In this document: piece after piece, positions 26,081 through 64,000 of the stretch
Layout of the letters: every line of letters begins with the position of its first letter
Position numbering within the stretch: position 1 is the stretch's first letter
NCBI GenBank assembly: GCA_021787335.1
Contig: JAJYMC010000044.1
Span: forward strand, 1 to 64,000
Direction of reading: 5' to 3'
Source of the DNA: Bacillota bacterium
GTDB lineage: Bacteria > Bacillota > Sulfobacillia > JAJYWN01 > JAJZPE01
DNA length: 64,000 bases
The notes under the pieces: generated by a model
The model's input: the letters and a program-made list of their open reading frames with translations, nothing else
The model's database searches: none
What the model was told of the DNA's origin: nothing
Program-made: the position numbers and the translations under genes

Positions 26081-26190
26081 TAGAAAGCCTGGGCTCGCGG
26101 GGAGGACTCGGAGGAATCCCGCGCCTCGCGCCGAACATCTGAAAAGCATAGCCCCGCATCGCGCCCGCGAGGGCGCAGCGGAATCGGCTT

Positions 26191-26276
26191 TCTCCGAGCC
26201 TGGCCACCTGTAGCCACTACGGTATGGTGCCAGGCCGACAGGGTGCGGCTGGAAACGGCCACGCCTCCCACTTGGA
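26191..26276 (+). ncRNA. Possible Moco-type riboswitch leader
   Basis: A 7-bp stem (GCCTGGC 26198-26204 with GCCAGGC 26229-26235) is followed by a hairpin whose loop and 3' side read GGAAACGGCCACGCCTCCC (26251-26269), just before the ribosome site of a molybdopterin-domain lipoprotein gene. The GGAAAC...GCCUCCC end recalls the 3' part of Moco riboswitches. The resemblance was judged by eye and the 5' half was not matched in detail. A covariance-model search with the Moco family (Rfam) would decide. Confidence 0.35.
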
Positions 26277-26290
26277 AAGGAGAGAGGTAT

Positions 26291-26848
26291 ATGTCGCTGT
26301 TTCCTTTTGTTTGGGTCAGACGTGGTGAGCGCAAGCGTGCGCCGCGTCTGGCCCATCGTGTTGTCCGGCCCGCCGTTGTGGCCCTGGCGTTGGCGGTTGC
26401 CCTGACCCTGGTCGTCGTGGCCGCCGCCGGGTGCGGGAAAGCCCCCGCCGCGGCTGATTCAGCCAAGGCCGGCTCGGGTGCGGGCGCGGGCACGGGCTCT
26501 GGCTCCAGCACCACCGGCACCTACTCGATCACCGTCCAGAGCAATGGCAAGACCCTCAAGACGTTGACCCTGAACGACATCAAGGCCCTCCCCGCGGTTA
26601 AGGTCGTCGCCGACGACAAGACGCAGGAGGGGCCGAAGCTCTCCGACGTGTTGAAGGCGGCCGGGGTGCAGAAGTACACGGAGGTCACGGTCACGGGGGC
26701 CTGGAAGGAGACCTACACCCTGAAGGCAGATCAGGCCGATGACACGGTCGTCCTCGACCTCTCCAACCGCGGCACGTGCAAGCTCGCCGGGCCCAAGATC
26801 CCGAAGGACAGCTGGGTCCGGGACGTCACGACCATAGAGGTGAAGTGA
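26291..26848 (+). CDS. Lipoprotein with a molybdopterin-oxidoreductase-like domain
   Basis: 185 residues. After a basic N-terminus, a hydrophobic segment ends in VVAAAGC, a lipobox that would lipidate the Cys and anchor the protein outside the membrane. A low-complexity Ala/Gly/Ser linker is followed by a small domain (about 75-185) with LKTLTLNDIKALPAVKV and GPKLSDVLKAAGVQKYTEVTVTGA. This resembles the short sulfite-oxidase-type molybdopterin-binding fold found in surface lipoproteins. ATG 26291 follows GGAAAGGAGAGAGG. A possible Moco-type leader precedes it. Only three bases separate it from the next gene. Confidence 0.75.
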   Translation: MSLFPFVWVRRGERKRAPRLAHRVVRPAVVALALAVALTLVVVAAAGCGKAPAAADSAKAGSGAGAGTGSGSSTTGTYSITVQSNGKTLKTLTLNDIKALPAVKVVADDKTQEGPKLSDVLKAAGVQKYTEVTVTGAWKETYTLKADQADDTVVLDLSNRGTCKLAGPKIPKDSWVRDVTTIEVK

Positions 26849-57979: not shown

Positions 57980-59899
57980 ATGAAACCCTTCCCCGCAGCC
58001 AAGCCATTCCCTGTAGCCAGAGTGCTCGAGGTCGACCTGAGTCGCGGCACGGTTTCGACGAGCGTCCTGCTGTCCGAGACCTACCGGCTGTATCCCGGGG
58101 GCTCGGCCCTCGCCGCCTACCTCATCGCCCGCGAACTGAAGCCGCGGGTTGACGCCCTCAGCCCGGACAACATGCTCGTCTTCGCGGTCTCTCCGCTGAC
58201 CGGCCTGGGGGCGCCGGGCCTTAGCCGGCTCGTGGTCGCCGCCAAGAGCCCGCTCACCGGGACCCTCGGCGACAGCCAAGGCGGCGGCTTTTTCCCGGCC
58301 TATCTGCGGGCCAACGGTTGGGACGCGGTGGTCTTCCGGGGCCGGGCCACGCGGCCGGTCTACCTCTTCATCGACGGGGACAAGGCCGAGCTGAGGCCGG
58401 CTGAGCATCTGTGGGGCAAGGTCACGGGCGAGGTCGAGGACCTCATCCGGGCCGAGATCGGCCACCCGGTCGAGGTCGCCCAGATCGGGCCGGCCGGCGA
58501 GCGGCTGGTCCGCTTCGCCTGCGTCCTGAGCCGGGCCACCCGGGCCAACGGCCGCAACGGGATGGGCGCGGTGATGGGCTCGAAGAACCTGAAGGCGGTG
58601 GTCGTCCGCAAGGCGACGGCCCGTCAGGCCGCCGACCCCGGGCGCCTCCGGGCCCTGACCGCCGACGCCAAGCGCCGCATGGCCGAGAACGCCGGCATGG
58701 ACGGCCTCGGCCGCGACGGCACCGACGGCGAACTCCTCGGCCACCATCAGGCCGGCTTCCTGCCGACCCGCAACTTCTCCGCGGGCTGGTTCCCGGAGGG
58801 GGCCGAGAAGATAACCGGCGCGACGATGTCCGCGACCATCCTCAAGGAACGAGAGACCTGCTTCGGTTGCCCGGTCCGGTGCAAGCGGGTAGTCGAGGTG
58901 CCGGGCCTGGTCGACCCGCGCTACGGCGGGCCCGAATACGAGACGGCCGCGTCCTTCGGCTCCTACTGCGGGGTGAGCGACCTGGCCGTCGTCGCCCGCG
59001 CCAACCAGCTCTGCAACATGTACGGTCTGGACACCATCTCCTGTGGCGGGACCATCGCCTTCGCCATGGAGGCCTATCAGAAGGGCATCCTCTCCAAGGA
59101 CGACCTGGGCGATGACCTTGGCGGCCTGGAGCCGCGCTTCGGCGACGGCGAGGCCGTCCTGAAGCTCATCGAGCTCATCGCCAACCGCGAGGGCGTCGGC
59201 GACCTCCTCGCCGAGGGCAGCCTGCGGGCCGCGAGGAAGCTCGGCCGCGGCGCCGAGGACAGCTCGGTCACGGTCAAGGGCCAGGAACTGCCGGCCCACA
59301 TGCCGCAGTACAAGCCGTCGGTCGGGCTCGTCTACGCGGTCAACCCGTTCGGGGCCGACCACCAGTCGAGCGAGCACGACCCGGTCCTGACCATGCCCCC
59401 GGACAGCCGCGAGCGCGAGCGTCTGGCCCGGCTCGGGAAGTGGCGCGGCGAGCCTGACAACTTCGCCCTCGATGAGGAGAAGGTCCGCTTCGCCCACGCC
59501 ACCCAGTGCTTCTACTCGATGATGGACACCCTCTGCCTGTGCCAGTTCGTCTGGGGTCCGGCCTGGCAGCTCTACGGCCCGGATGATGTCCTCGAGCTGT
59601 GCCGGGCCGGTCTGGGCTGGGACGCCTCGCTGGACGAGCTGATGCGCGTGGGCGAGCGGCGGATCAACCTGATGCGCGCCTTCAACGCTCGCGAGGGCTT
59701 CACCCGCGCCGACGACCGGCTGCCCGCCCGCGTCTTCAGCGGCCTCCCCGACGGTCCGGCCAAGGGGGCGCACATCGACCGGGAGACGTTCGAGCGTGCC
59801 CTGACCCTCTACTACCACCTCGCCGGCTGGGACCCGGAGACCGGGGCCCCGACGCCGGCCAAGCTGAAGGAGCTGTCCATCGGCGAAGAGGCCCTTTGA
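57980..59899 (+). CDS. Aldehyde:ferredoxin oxidoreductase (tungsten AOR family)
   Basis: 639 residues. AOR-family enzymes bind a tungsto- or molybdo-bispyranopterin and one [4Fe-4S] cluster and oxidise aldehydes to acids with ferredoxin. The N-terminal pterin domain is present (VLEVDLSRGTV, YPGGSALAAYLIA, SPLTGLGAPGLSRLVVAAKS). Cluster ligands can be placed at CFGCPVRCKR with a distal Cys near LCLCQF. ATG 57980 follows GAGGAGG. The gene is preceded by the protease terminator and is monocistronic, with convergent genes following. Confidence 0.92.
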   Translation: MKPFPAAKPFPVARVLEVDLSRGTVSTSVLLSETYRLYPGGSALAAYLIARELKPRVDALSPDNMLVFAVSPLTGLGAPGLSRLVVAAKSPLTGTLGDSQGGGFFPAYLRANGWDAVVFRGRATRPVYLFIDGDKAELRPAEHLWGKVTGEVEDLIRAEIGHPVEVAQIGPAGERLVRFACVLSRATRANGRNGMGAVMGSKNLKAVVVRKATARQAADPGRLRALTADAKRRMAENAGMDGLGRDGTDGELLGHHQAGFLPTRNFSAGWFPEGAEKITGATMSATILKERETCFGCPVRCKRVVEVPGLVDPRYGGPEYETAASFGSYCGVSDLAVVARANQLCNMYGLDTISCGGTIAFAMEAYQKGILSKDDLGDDLGGLEPRFGDGEAVLKLIELIANREGVGDLLAEGSLRAARKLGRGAEDSSVTVKGQELPAHMPQYKPSVGLVYAVNPFGADHQSSEHDPVLTMPPDSRERERLARLGKWRGEPDNFALDEEKVRFAHATQCFYSMMDTLCLCQFVWGPAWQLYGPDDVLELCRAGLGWDASLDELMRVGERRINLMRAFNAREGFTRADDRLPARVFSGLPDGPAKGAHIDRETFERALTLYYHLAGWDPETGAPTPAKLKELSIGEEAL

Positions 59900-59923: not shown

Positions 59924-61699
59924 TCAGGAATCGGTTCCTGACGAACCGAACCGGGCCTGCCGGCTGAACTGAATCGCGACCGGGGACCAACTGGGCGCCT
60001 GACCGCGGGCGCCCTTCCCGCGCCCGACCGGGCGGAGCCGCGCCAGGCGGGCCTCTTCGGCGAGGGGCTCGCCGGTCCAGGGGTCGACGGCCACGCAGGC
60101 GCCGTAGACCATCCGGGTCACGACCCGGCCGCGGGCGCTGGCGTTGCCCTTCAGGTGAGGGGCGTCGAGGTAGCCGAGGGCGACGGCGCGGGCCAGGGTC
60201 GTCGGGTCGGCCAGCGGGTCGGGGACACCCGCCGGGGCCAGCTTCTTGATGGCCTGGAGCAACATGATCGCCTGGGCCTTCAGCTGGCTGCGGCGTCCTC
60301 TGACGATGGGATCGGCGGACGCGTCCGGCAGCCCGTCGAGGGTCGAGCGGATGACCCCGCGGGCGATCTTACAGGACTCGATGACCACCTCCGGCCCGGC
60401 CGCGTGGCTGGCCTCGCTGTAGCCGACGACGTGGACGATGTGAGGCTTGAGGGCCATCCCGAGGGCCGTGGCCTGGGCCAGCTGCCCCTTGGCCAGGTCC
60501 AGGTCGGCCGGGAAGCTGGCGAGGCCCGCGCGGACCTCGCGATAGACGGTGAACTCAGGGCCGGCGAGGCTCTCGATGAGGTCCGCCTTGGCCAGCATCT
60601 TGGCCAGGTCCATGCGGGCCGTGGTCCGCGGCGGCGTGTTCAGCATGAACTGGGCGACGTATTCCTTGACCCCGAGGGCCTTGGCGTTGTAAGCCCCAAG
60701 GTAGGCGGCGGCCACGGCGACCACGTCGGGCGCGTCGCGCAGGCTCCACTGGTGAGGGTCGTTGACCTCGACCGGCCGGCCGTTCTCGGCGTTCCAGCGG
60801 ATGGCCGCCTGGTTCTCGGCGATGGCCTCACGGAGCGGGCGATCGCTTCGGCCGTCCAGGGCGCTGTACCAGAACAGAGGGATGGCCGCCCAGGCGTTGT
60901 CGATGGTGTCGGCCAGGACCCTGGCCATCCTCAGGAGGTCGCGGGTGCCGCTGTAACAGCGCAGCAGCGGGTGGTTGCCGGTTCGGGCCGCGGCCGCCAG
61001 GGCTCGGAGGTCGTCCTCCGAACGGATGGGCACCCCGCCGGCGCCATCCTGCTCGGGATCCTGCTCGTCCGGGCGGAAGAAGGACTCCTGAGCGTTCTGA
61101 TCCGGGCCGATGGAGATGACGTCCACGACCCCGGCTTCGGCGATCTGCCGGATGCCGTCGACGGTCTCAGCCACGGTGGGCAACCCGAAGTGGTGACGGA
61201 TCAGGGGATACGGGCTCTTGCGGGCCATCCTGTGACGCAGGTCGAGCCCGGCCAGGTCGACGCTCGAATGGAGGCCGCCGCCCGGCGGCGGGGGCACGGC
61301 CTCGGGGTCGGCCGCCGTCCTAAGGTAGGCGATGATCTCGTCGAGGTCCTCCTCGCCGGAGAAGACCGCCTCGAACATCCCCATCTCGCGGGCTACCGCG
61401 GCCACGGGGGGCGGGCCGCCGAAGAGCCAGCGGAGGCGGGTCAGCGCGGGTTCCGTCTCCCAGCGCTTCCTGAGGTGCAGGAGGATCCGCCGGCCGGGCT
61501 CGGGCCCCAGCCGGTAGCCCACGGCGACGAAGTCGGCCCCGACCTCGAGGGCCTTGTCGCAGAGGGCGTCGACGGGGACGGCCGGGCCCATGAAGATGGT
61601 TCGAAAGCCCTGGGCCTCCGCCAGGCGAAGAAAACTCAGGGCTCCCGCGACATGGACGCAGTCGCCGACCGCCGCCGCGACGATGGTTCGCTTGTTCAT
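59924..61699 (-). CDS. Cobalamin-binding-domain protein with mutase-like C-terminal region
   Basis: 591 residues. The first ~130 residues look like a B12-binding Rossmann domain (VAAAVGDCVHVAGALSFLRL, TIFMGPAVPVDAL, GADFVAVGYRLGP). The usual DxHxxG reads DCVHVAG, so the His is one position further along. The remaining ~460 residues include long helices and ISIGPDQNAQESFF, resembling TIM-barrel parts of B12 mutases or methyltransferase-associated proteins, but no family is assigned with certainty. ATG 61699 overlaps the stop of the upstream opine-dehydrogenase-like gene (ATGA), so the two are coupled and share the c-di-AMP riboswitch. Confidence 0.65.
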   Translation of the reverse strand: MNKRTIVAAAVGDCVHVAGALSFLRLAEAQGFRTIFMGPAVPVDALCDKALEVGADFVAVGYRLGPEPGRRILLHLRKRWETEPALTRLRWLFGGPPPVAAVAREMGMFEAVFSGEEDLDEIIAYLRTAADPEAVPPPPGGGLHSSVDLAGLDLRHRMARKSPYPLIRHHFGLPTVAETVDGIRQIAEAGVVDVISIGPDQNAQESFFRPDEQDPEQDGAGGVPIRSEDDLRALAAAARTGNHPLLRCYSGTRDLLRMARVLADTIDNAWAAIPLFWYSALDGRSDRPLREAIAENQAAIRWNAENGRPVEVNDPHQWSLRDAPDVVAVAAAYLGAYNAKALGVKEYVAQFMLNTPPRTTARMDLAKMLAKADLIESLAGPEFTVYREVRAGLASFPADLDLAKGQLAQATALGMALKPHIVHVVGYSEASHAAGPEVVIESCKIARGVIRSTLDGLPDASADPIVRGRRSQLKAQAIMLLQAIKKLAPAGVPDPLADPTTLARAVALGYLDAPHLKGNASARGRVVTRMVYGACVAVDPWTGEPLAEEARLARLRPVGRGKGARGQAPSWSPVAIQFSRQARFGSSGTDS

Positions 61700-62733
61700 G
61701 CCACAGACCTCCTCGCGGCCACATGGGCCAGGATGTCATCGACGCCGGCCCCGTCCAGGCCGAGGCGCTCCACCGTTCGCCCGGTCGCGAAGTAGTCGAC
61801 GCCGTGGATGGCCGAAGCCAGGTCGATGAGGGAATCGATGCTCGGGGAAGGGACGGCCAGGAGTCGGGCCAGGGAGGACATCGGGACCAGACTGGTCGGG
61901 ACGTCCTCGGTAAGGTAACGGTGGCTGAGCCCGCTGGGAGCCATGATTCCGTCATAGCCCGGGTTGGCCTGAAGGGCGCCGTGGAGGTCCCCGGCCTCGA
62001 CGGAGTAGGACTCCTTCATCCACTCGAGGGCGGTGACGTGGGGGACGCCGAGGGCCGAGGCGATCAGGCAACGTTCGGAGTCCACCGCTTCAATCACTCG
62101 AACCACCGAGGGCGAGGCGCCGCGCCGGTAGAACTCGAACTCGCTCGACTGGTCCTCGATCCGCCCCGCGTTGAGCAGAGCGATGGCCGGGTGGAAGACC
62201 GCGCCGATGTTGTCCAGGCTGGTCTCGAGGACGCTCGAGGCGGCAACGAACCGGCCGGGGTAGATGCGTTCGAGAAGGGCGGCCACCTCCGGATTGCGGG
62301 CGGACGGGAGGGCGGCGAAGGTGACCTTTCTCTTCCGCCCGTAGATGTGGGCCTGCGCGGGCCCCACGGCCCTGGCGGCGAAGAGGAAGGTCGAGGCCTC
62401 GGCGACGACCATCAATAGCTCCGCACCCTCGATGGCCGCCCCGGGGTCGGTCGTGACCAGTTCGAAGCGGGCCAGCATCGGCGGGCCGGCCTCCGGGCCG
62501 CTGTCCACCAGTGAGACGCCCCCGGCCGCGACGATGGGGCGAAGCCGCTCCTCGCCGCGGTTGAAGAGGCTCACGCGATGGCCGGCCAGGGCAAGGTCGG
62601 AGGCCATGGCGAGGCCGCCGTTGCCGGCTCCGAGCACGGCCACGGCCAGGGGATGCTGGTCATGTTGGTTTCCCAGCCAGATCCGTCTCAAGCGGTGCAT
62701 GACCCGTGGGATGAAGCCTGATCCTCTGTTCAT
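61696..62733 (-). CDS. Opine/octopine dehydrogenase-like NAD(P) enzyme
   Basis: 345 residues. The N-terminal Rossmann site is VAVLGAGNGGLAMASDLALA. The C-terminal half is an octopine/nopaline dehydrogenase-type helical domain (NIGAVFHPAIALLNAGRIED, then EFEFYRRGASPSV, with the conserved His in FHP). The family makes or degrades N-carboxyalkyl amino acids. ATG 62733 is chosen for CAGGAGGTGGCCC directly upstream; a longer open frame runs back through the terminator and riboswitch and is not real. Control by c-di-AMP suggests a role in osmolyte or cell-wall amino acid balance. This is an inference. Confidence 0.82.
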   Translation of the reverse strand: MNRGSGFIPRVMHRLRRIWLGNQHDQHPLAVAVLGAGNGGLAMASDLALAGHRVSLFNRGEERLRPIVAAGGVSLVDSGPEAGPPMLARFELVTTDPGAAIEGAELLMVVAEASTFLFAARAVGPAQAHIYGRKRKVTFAALPSARNPEVAALLERIYPGRFVAASSVLETSLDNIGAVFHPAIALLNAGRIEDQSSEFEFYRRGASPSVVRVIEAVDSERCLIASALGVPHVTALEWMKESYSVEAGDLHGALQANPGYDGIMAPSGLSHRYLTEDVPTSLVPMSSLARLLAVPSPSIDSLIDLASAIHGVDYFATGRTVERLGLDGAGVDDILAHVAARRSVA

Positions 62734-62802
62734 GGGCCACCTCCTGATCGGTTTGGAACTGCTTTCGCCGGATAAAGCAGGCCGACTGACGCGGAAGGGC
62801 CA

Positions 62803-62846
62803 CGAAAAACGAAGCCCCCCACGAACTCGTAAGTCCGTGGGGGGCT
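62803..62846 (-). terminator. Riboswitch-controlled intrinsic terminator
   Basis: Read on the minus strand, arms AGCCCCCCACG (62846-62836) and CGTGGGGGGCT (62823-62813) form an 11-bp stem, followed by TCGTTTTTCG. It lies upstream of the opine-dehydrogenase-like start. Its loop contains CTTACGAG (62833-62826), complementary to CTCGTAAG (62934-62927) in the riboswitch 3' segment, giving an antiterminator pairing. Confidence 0.88.
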
Positions 62847-62923
62847 GATACGTCCAAGAAGACCTCTTCCCGCCGCGTCGGGCGACGCCAGAGGAAGAGA
62901 CGGCAACGCCGTCCGCCCATCCC

Positions 62924-63056
62924 ACGCTTACGAGGTTAGCTGACGGATTCGGGCTGACAGGCTTGCCCTACGCGCCGAAGCGCGATTCACCCCAAGTGCT
63001 TGGTTCCCCCGTTCCCCGTCGGAAGCCCCGGCGGGGATTCAGCGATCGCTAATCGG
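62924..63056 (-). ncRNA. c-di-AMP (ydaO/yuaA) riboswitch
   Basis: The minus strand matches the conserved ydaO core by eye: GCTGAATCCCC near the start, GGGGGAACCAAG, TTGGGGTGAAT, GTAGGGC, then AGCCCGAATCCGTCAG and CTAACCTCGTAAGCG. The order and spacing of all boxes agree. The ligand c-di-AMP normally turns downstream expression off through a terminator, and a terminator is present. Target genes in other bacteria are cell-wall enzymes, K+ transporters and osmolyte systems; here they are the opine-dehydrogenase-like and cobalamin-binding genes. Confidence 0.93.
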
Positions 63057-63074
63057 ATATTCGCTTGTATTACC

Positions 63075-63103
63075 AGTTTAACCTGCCAGAGGTGGCTTGT
63101 CAA
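63075..63103 (-). promoter_or_regulatory. Sigma-A type promoter of the riboswitch transcript
   Basis: The minus strand reads TTGACA (63103-63098), a 17-base spacer, then TAAACT (63080-63075). The predicted start is near 63067, about ten bases before the riboswitch. Spacing and boxes are close to consensus. Confidence 0.78.
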
Positions 63104-63137: not shown

Positions 63138-64000
63138 TCAGGCGGCCAGCCGCTTCTCGGTCGCCGCCAACAGGCGGCGGAAGAGGTCGGCCGAGGTCCA
63201 TCCCAGGTTCTCGGCCATCTTCCCGATGTAGCTCGAATGGAGGTGCCGTTCATCGCCGCTGAGGATCTGCAGGCCGGCAAAGGTGTTCAGTTCGAGGGCG
63301 TACGGCAGGCCCCACTCGCGGCTGTAGATGAAATCGACGCGGGCGAAATCCCGGGCCTCGAGGCTCTGGAAGGCGGCCACGGCCGCCCGCCTGACGCTGG
63401 CCATGGCCTCTTCGTCCAATCGCGCCGGGCAATGGAAGACTTCGCGGTCCTGCTTGTGCTCATAGGTGTTGGTCTTGGCCCCAAAGTACTCGACCTCCAG
63501 GGGCGGAAGGACGGTCAGGCCGTCACCGTTGCCAATCAGGCCGACGGTGACCTCGGGGCCCTGGACGTACTCTTCGACCAGCGCGCTCTGCCCCAGGGAG
63601 GTCACCACCCGGCGGCAGGCCCGTTCGAGTTCCTGAAGGTTGTTGACGATTGACTCATCGGTTATCCCCGAGCTGCCCCGGCCCCGCACGGGCTTGACGA
63701 AGAGGGGGAAGGGGGGTAGCGAGGCCTCGTCCAACTGGGCGGGGTCATCCACCCGGACGAACCGAGGAGTCAGGACGGCGGACTCCCGCCACAGCCGTTT
63801 GCGCGTCGCCTTGTCAAGGGCGACGACGTTGAGGCCGGAGCCCAGGAAGGGCACGCCGACGAGCTCGAGAGCAGCTACCTCAGCCAACGAAGAGGCGTTG
63901 ACGACCAGGTCGTAGCGCCCGGTCTGAAGACGGCCGATGTTCACCCTCGGGTCCTGGCTCCAAGTGAGCAGCTCGACCTCGTGGCCGATGGCGGCCATGG
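63138..64000 (-). CDS. D-alanine-D-alanine ligase-like ATP-grasp protein, 5' end outside window
   Basis: At least 287 residues are visible; the N-terminus lies beyond base 64000. The ATP-grasp pattern is clear: FPLFVKPVRGRGSSGITDES (ATP-binding Lys and Gly-rich loop), ALVEEYVQGPEVTVGLIGNG, and the metal ligands near VDFIYSREWGLPYALELNTFA. This matches the Ddl family. A lone Ddl-like protein may be a true D-Ala ligase or a peptide/amino-acid ligase used elsewhere. It ends about 80 bases before the riboswitch start, so it is a separate transcript upstream. Confidence 0.85.
   Translation of the reverse strand, partial: MAAIGHEVELLTWSQDPRVNIGRLQTGRYDLVVNASSLAEVAALELVGVPFLGSGLNVVALDKATRKRLWRESAVLTPRFVRVDDPAQLDEASLPPFPLFVKPVRGRGSSGITDESIVNNLQELERACRRVVTSLGQSALVEEYVQGPEVTVGLIGNGDGLTVLPPLEVEYFGAKTNTYEHKQDREVFHCPARLDEEAMASVRRAAVAAFQSLEARDFARVDFIYSREWGLPYALELNTFAGLQILSGDERHLHSSYIGKMAENLGWTSADLFRRLLAATEKRLAA

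Follow-up and report, generated by a model that had tools for sequence, protein, structure and literature searches.

Why should a riboswitch for c-di-AMP, the messenger of turgor and potassium, stand before a gene for an opine dehydrogenase-type protein? The question is raised by one end of the 64,000-nucleotide stretch of a Bacillota genome analysed here (the window), where such a gene is followed, on the minus strand, by a gene for a protein with a cobalamin (B12)-binding domain. The partnership of the two genes is not new to the literature. A B12-dependent family always adjacent to pfam02317 was predicted in 11 bacteria, with a D-Ala:D-Ala ligase and an asparagine synthase in the vicinity, and neither a function nor a mode of regulation was given (Zhang et al. 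2009; PMC2667541).

The genes described here are the same as those of the 2009 cluster; to them we add a glutamate-mutase-type fold, the alternation of two kinds of ligase, and control by a c-di-AMP riboswitch. Such control would give a widespread B12/opine dehydrogenase (ODH) cluster, without an assigned function since 2009, its first physiological handle, and it would add to the c-di-AMP riboswitch regulon a target outside the transport, wall, and known osmolyte genes. A literature search found no link of c-di-AMP or a riboswitch to opine dehydrogenase or to the 2009 cluster; its coverage of ydaO gene associations was incomplete, which leaves priority unsettled.

The leader and the c-di-AMP regulon

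The aptamer (62909..63054, minus strand) matches the ydaO/yuaA model RF00379 over its full length (model positions 1-134) at 102.7 bits (Rfam cmscan, E 2.7e-23; gathering cut-off 38 bits), with no broken pairs flagged and with the invariant core present in an alignment with 24 other riboswitches. It begins about 20 nt past the end of a sigma-70-type promoter (TTGACA-17-TAAACT, 63103-63075, minus strand), which scores 10/12 in a consensus scan where shuffled sequences lead one to expect 0.1 such sites. Further along the same strand follow an intrinsic terminator hairpin of 15 pairs (62846-62813, -30.0 kcal/mol) with its T tract, TCGTTTTTCG, and a Shine-Dalgarno sequence, AGGAGGT (62745-62739), 5 nt before the ATG at 62733. 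A preliminary description of this DNA had placed promoter, riboswitch, terminator, and gene in register on the minus strand; every one of these elements is where it was said to be, and the covariance model (Infernal/Rfam) bears out the class of the riboswitch.

The conserved 3' strand of the aptamer (CTCGTAAGCGTGGG, also written CUCGUAAGCGUGGG; 62934-62921, minus strand) is complementary to the 5' arm of the terminator, in which its partner, CCCACG-GA-CUUACGAG, occupies 62841-62826 of the same strand. The antiterminator duplex so formed comprises 14 bp with a 2-nt bulge and has a predicted energy of -29.4 kcal/mol, compared with -30.0 kcal/mol for the terminator hairpin; shuffled arms paired equally well with the aptamer 3' strand in 2/2000 cases. 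For a second, sister leader in the same genome, the antiterminator is weaker (-20.3 kcal/mol; 96/2000 shuffles).

Because the terminator 5' arm is complementary to the aptamer 3' strand, the leader has the anatomy of an OFF switch, and from this anatomy we infer that low c-di-AMP turns the operon on. c-di-AMP would be high when turgor and potassium suffice; the ligand-bound aptamer would then retain its 3' strand, the terminator would fold, and the ODH and B12 mutase would not be made. A fall in c-di-AMP, such as may accompany hyperosmotic stress or a lack of potassium, would free the 3' strand to engage the 5' arm of the terminator and so allow transcription of the operon. Across 33 riboswitch-led leaders, a strong terminator is present in 16 (versus 16 of 660 shuffles), and complementarity between aptamer and terminator is clear in a minority, made up of the closest relatives and a handful of further leaders; a general antiterminator rule covering all riboswitch-led loci was not found in this set. 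The leaders of Armatimonadota possibly have another output, perhaps translation.

By gene content, the host makes c-di-AMP (two DAC-domain cyclases, PF02457), and its genome contains eight RF00379 riboswitches. Two of these stand directly in front of Octopine_DH genes, of which the genome has no others. The other targets are DarA (CdAMP_rec), a KimA-like protein of amino-acid-permease fold, an ATP-grasp protein, two 3D-domain peptidoglycan-binding proteins, and one N-acetylmuramoyl-L-alanine amidase, so that the regulon, as predicted from these genes, is of the ordinary c-di-AMP turgor and wall type. The riboswitch of the window thus has the full-length aptamer and the terminator-type platform of the ydaO/yuaA class, whose other copies in this genome precede known types of target, whereas its own target, an ODH with a B12 mutase, falls outside the target classes named in PMC7266159 and PMC9337991.

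Two observations may be recorded beside this inventory. On contig C65 (L013 9513-10654), a further c-di-AMP riboswitch of this genome precedes a lone, divergent D-Ala-ligase-like ATP-grasp gene and a metallo-hydrolase-like gene. The window itself also holds a molybdenum/tungsten cofactor riboswitch (RF01055, 66.6 bits, 26180-26298, plus strand) and, elsewhere, a gene for a tungsten-type aldehyde ferredoxin oxidoreductase (57980-59899, plus strand).

Recurrence of the pairing in other genomes

Of the 79 Octopine_DH genes in 61 related genomes, 25 are preceded on the same strand, within 2.5 kb, by a riboswitch that passes the Rfam cut-off, compared with 0.07 expected, a raw count that ignores relatedness. 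These pairs are spread over 23 genomes and 13 families. On a tree of the ODH proteins, the riboswitch label changes 6 times, with at least 4 of the changes forced by well-supported branches, and the pairing is therefore not one inherited accident. That the riboswitch merely adjoins an unrelated operon by chance is ruled out by the 61-genome count, is further opposed by these label changes, has nothing that we found in its favour, and retains next to no probability.

The RF00379 match, the promoter, terminator, and ribosome-binding site in register, the antiterminator, and the recurring pairing together support riboswitch control of the ODH-B12 operon well, and, on this sequence evidence, we consider such control highly probable. 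The central proposal of the preliminary description, a c-di-AMP riboswitch before an opine dehydrogenase-type gene, is thereby upheld through both family matches and a conservation far beyond chance. Its further suggestion, that the gene would be a new member of the regulon, holds insofar as the pairing is conserved and no prior link to c-di-AMP was found, but the gene cluster itself had already been predicted in 2009 (PMC2667541).

A wider set was made up of 80 loci of close ODH relatives drawn from the genomes of 84,980 species. Using a covariance model of our own, we found the riboswitch upstream of the ODH gene in 14 of these loci and nowhere else in their 1.24 Mb. Rfam confirmed the loci that were rechecked, which belong to Bacillota, Armatimonadota, and Sumerlaeota; among those of Bacillota is a locus (L100) from Candidatus Fermentithermobacillus carboniphilus, whose genome is closed. 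The riboswitch was not detected in most loci of the same gene cluster in Chloroflexota, Atribacterota, and Aminicenantes, so the function need not be osmotic everywhere.

Separately, near-identical riboswitch-ODH-ATP-grasp loci were seen in a Sumerlaeota bin (L096) and a Spirochaetales bin (L114), one of which is probably contaminated.

The enzymes and the duplicated cassette

The gene directly behind the riboswitch (61696..62733, minus strand) encodes a protein of 345 aa, here called ODH1, that matches Octopine_DH (PF02317, E 1.3e-47); its alpha-helical C-terminal domain is present (162 bits, cut-off 30). The N-terminal Rossmann domain is incomplete. Relative to a second dehydrogenase of the genome, ODH2, ODH1 has lost 51 residues in frame (VVPAIGH...LNPGRTGGALEF...ADVV), which are present in every relative aligned (ODH2 and nine relatives) and include invariant columns, and it has kept the GxGxxG motif. 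An AF2 model of ODH1 still matches N-(1-D-carboxylethyl)-L-norvaline dehydrogenase (CENDH, 1bg6), with low confidence around the deletion junction. With CENDH and octopine dehydrogenase (3c7a), the protein has whole-length homology and fold in common, and it differs from them in the missing part of the Rossmann domain and in its genomic setting. The earlier designation as opine dehydrogenase-like is correct as to family; the copy in the window, however, is truncated, and its paralogue is intact. Opine metallophore synthesis of the staphylopine/pseudopaline type was considered and rejected: CENDH and octopine dehydrogenase match better than do the dehydrogenases of metallophore pathways, and the neighbourhoods contain no recurring metallophore synthase or transporter.

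The intact ODH2, a second B12 protein, and their own riboswitch (contig 67102-67253) form a sister cassette 4 kb upstream, just outside the window (contig 64033-67253; contig C58, L011 4034-7254). Its last gene (63138..64000, minus strand, running off the window) encodes a D-Ala-D-Ala-ligase-like ATP-grasp protein (PF07478, E 1.3e-23), whose family is found again in the operons of other genomes. The tandem order is consequently riboswitch, ODH2, B12 protein 2, ATP-grasp, riboswitch (62909-63054), ODH1, B12 protein 1, and the DNA of the two cassettes is ~70-81% identical over riboswitch and coding regions. An amino acid permease gene precedes the sister cassette.

ODH1 may accordingly be inactive or defective and be served by its intact sister. 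Opinion can be evenly divided on whether the window riboswitch controls a decaying duplicate in which the truncated ODH1 yields no active dehydrogenase and what counts is the B12 mutase alone or nothing at all, a reading that is compatible with the explanation preferred below for the family as a whole. The loss of 51 residues, some in columns invariant among relatives, and the low-confidence model around the junction speak for decay. So does a contig of another genome of the same family (G002 contig C15, L174), on which a riboswitch-led second cassette has an intact ODH gene and a B12 gene that is frameshifted and without its B12-binding motif; taken together, the two sequences suggest that the second cassette is eroding differently from lineage to lineage, with its regulation retained and the parts lost not the same. 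Against decay stand the preservation of the reading frame across the deletion, the fully kept regulatory parts, and a dN/dS of ~0.26 between ODH1 and ODH2, which is like that of the intact B12 pair and indicates that the remainder of ODH1 is under purifying selection. The deletion is also possibly an assembly error.

The gene that overlaps the ODH1 stop (59924..61699, minus strand) encodes a protein of 591 aa in which a B12-binding domain is fused to a TIM barrel. Its match to the B12-binding model PF02310 lies just below the cut-off. The AF2 model (pLDDT 90) has glutamate mutase 6h9e_B as its best Foldseek match (E 2.5e-16, TM 0.64 by target), and the B12 part alone aligns with 1cb7_A at a TM (target) of 0.76. 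In the motif of the N-terminal B12 domain, the His and Gly are invariant (34/34 sequences), and the usual Asp position is Cys in 29 and Asp in 2. The C-terminal segment has weak, collinear sequence similarity to a GlmE. Neither this protein nor any other of its genome matches PF06368 above the cut-off; B12 copies beside ODH genes in relatives match it weakly, several of them scoring just above the cut-off and others below. In a weak profile alignment, two arginines of the substrate claw appear to be kept and one to be replaced by an invariant Gln, at what we take to be the three-arginine claw positions of glutamate mutase.

Compared with glutamate mutase (GlmS plus GlmE, 6h9e/1cb7), then, both domains agree in fold, His-x-x-Gly is kept, and a GlmE-collinear C-terminal segment is present, but the chain is single and fused, the Asp of DxHxxG is mostly Cys, the substrate pocket appears altered, and the sequence similarity is remote. 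The cobalamin-binding partner named in the preliminary description thus does have a B12 domain and is more than that name implies, a fused enzyme of glutamate-mutase type according to AF2 and Foldseek. Two other assignments were set aside: a true glutamate mutase, because sequence models do not recognise the protein, and a plain methyltransferase corrinoid protein, because similarity to those is confined to the B12 domain and the barrel is mutase-like.

The B12 gene adjoins the ODH gene in most of the 80 wider loci. Among 18 riboswitch-led regions in relatives (gene content by tblastn), it follows ODH in 17, with an ATP-grasp gene in 6 and an AsnB-like gene in 3. The third gene thus encodes either a D-Ala-ligase-like ATP-grasp or an AsnB-like protein, alternating by locus, and about half of the AsnB-like proteins have no Cys following Met1, a residue required for glutamine amidotransferase activity. 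No recurring dedicated transporter was found near the operon, whose flanking genes vary by locus.

At one locus (L161, G013 contig C11), a riboswitch-led ODH gene is without a B12 gene and is followed by a gene that, judged from its sequence, looks like a class III aminotransferase.

Possible products of the operon

From the riboswitch, its platform, the conserved operon, and the folds, all read from sequence, we infer the following reactions and product. The glutamate-mutase-like enzyme, presumably of adenosylcobalamin type, would supply or rearrange an amino acid; the dehydrogenase would couple it reductively with a 2-oxo acid to yield an opine; and the ATP-grasp or AsnB-like partner would form an amide on that opine. 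The resulting opine-type, probably amidated compound would serve as a small compatible solute. Taken as a whole, an operon that builds a compatible solute and is switched off by riboswitch-mediated termination is the explanation that we mildly favour. That the product is an osmolyte, as the preliminary description had hinted, is plausible, and taken by itself we put it somewhat short of an even chance; this reading draws on the turgor, potassium, and wall character of the regulon, the amide-forming ligases, the precedent of ablA (PMC9337991), and the finding that no transporter recurs near the operon.

The precedent concerns a c-di-AMP riboswitch, in a Na+/c-di-AMP tandem, on the gene ablA for the osmolyte beta-lysine (PMC9337991). 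In both cases, if the proposed product is right, a c-di-AMP riboswitch that is OFF when c-di-AMP is high would govern the making of an osmolyte derived from an amino acid; the operon described here differs in having a single riboswitch and another product. The prediction that follows is an operon that is on at low c-di-AMP and under hyperosmotic stress, with a new amino-acid-derived solute to be sought. More tentatively, there may be an undescribed class of compatible solutes, (amidated) opines made by B12 mutase, ODH, and ligase, that is c-di-AMP-repressed in several phyla.

A less likely alternative is that the operon is catabolic or redox-linked, serving rearrangement and oxidative opine cleavage or the disposal of NADH, and is shut by c-di-AMP as a form of growth control. 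The mutase falls in the glutamate-mutase/aminomutase superfamily, known members of which serve amino-acid fermentation; the hosts are mostly anaerobic, and the aldehyde ferredoxin oxidoreductase gene is nearby. ATP-consuming, amide-forming enzymes are, however, typical of synthesis, and the riboswitch regulon is one of turgor, potassium, and wall.

Service to the cell wall, with the Ddl-like ATP-grasp protein and an opine-type amino acid contributing to a peptidoglycan precursor or a spore-related compound, appears less likely still. The Ddl-like partner itself suggests it, as do the three of the eight riboswitches of the genome that precede wall hydrolases. It fits poorly with the AsnB-like gene that replaces the ligase elsewhere, in half of cases lacking the amidotransferase Cys, and with neighbourhoods in which mur, transport, and cross-linking genes do not recur; moreover, the core genes occur across phyla with very different walls.
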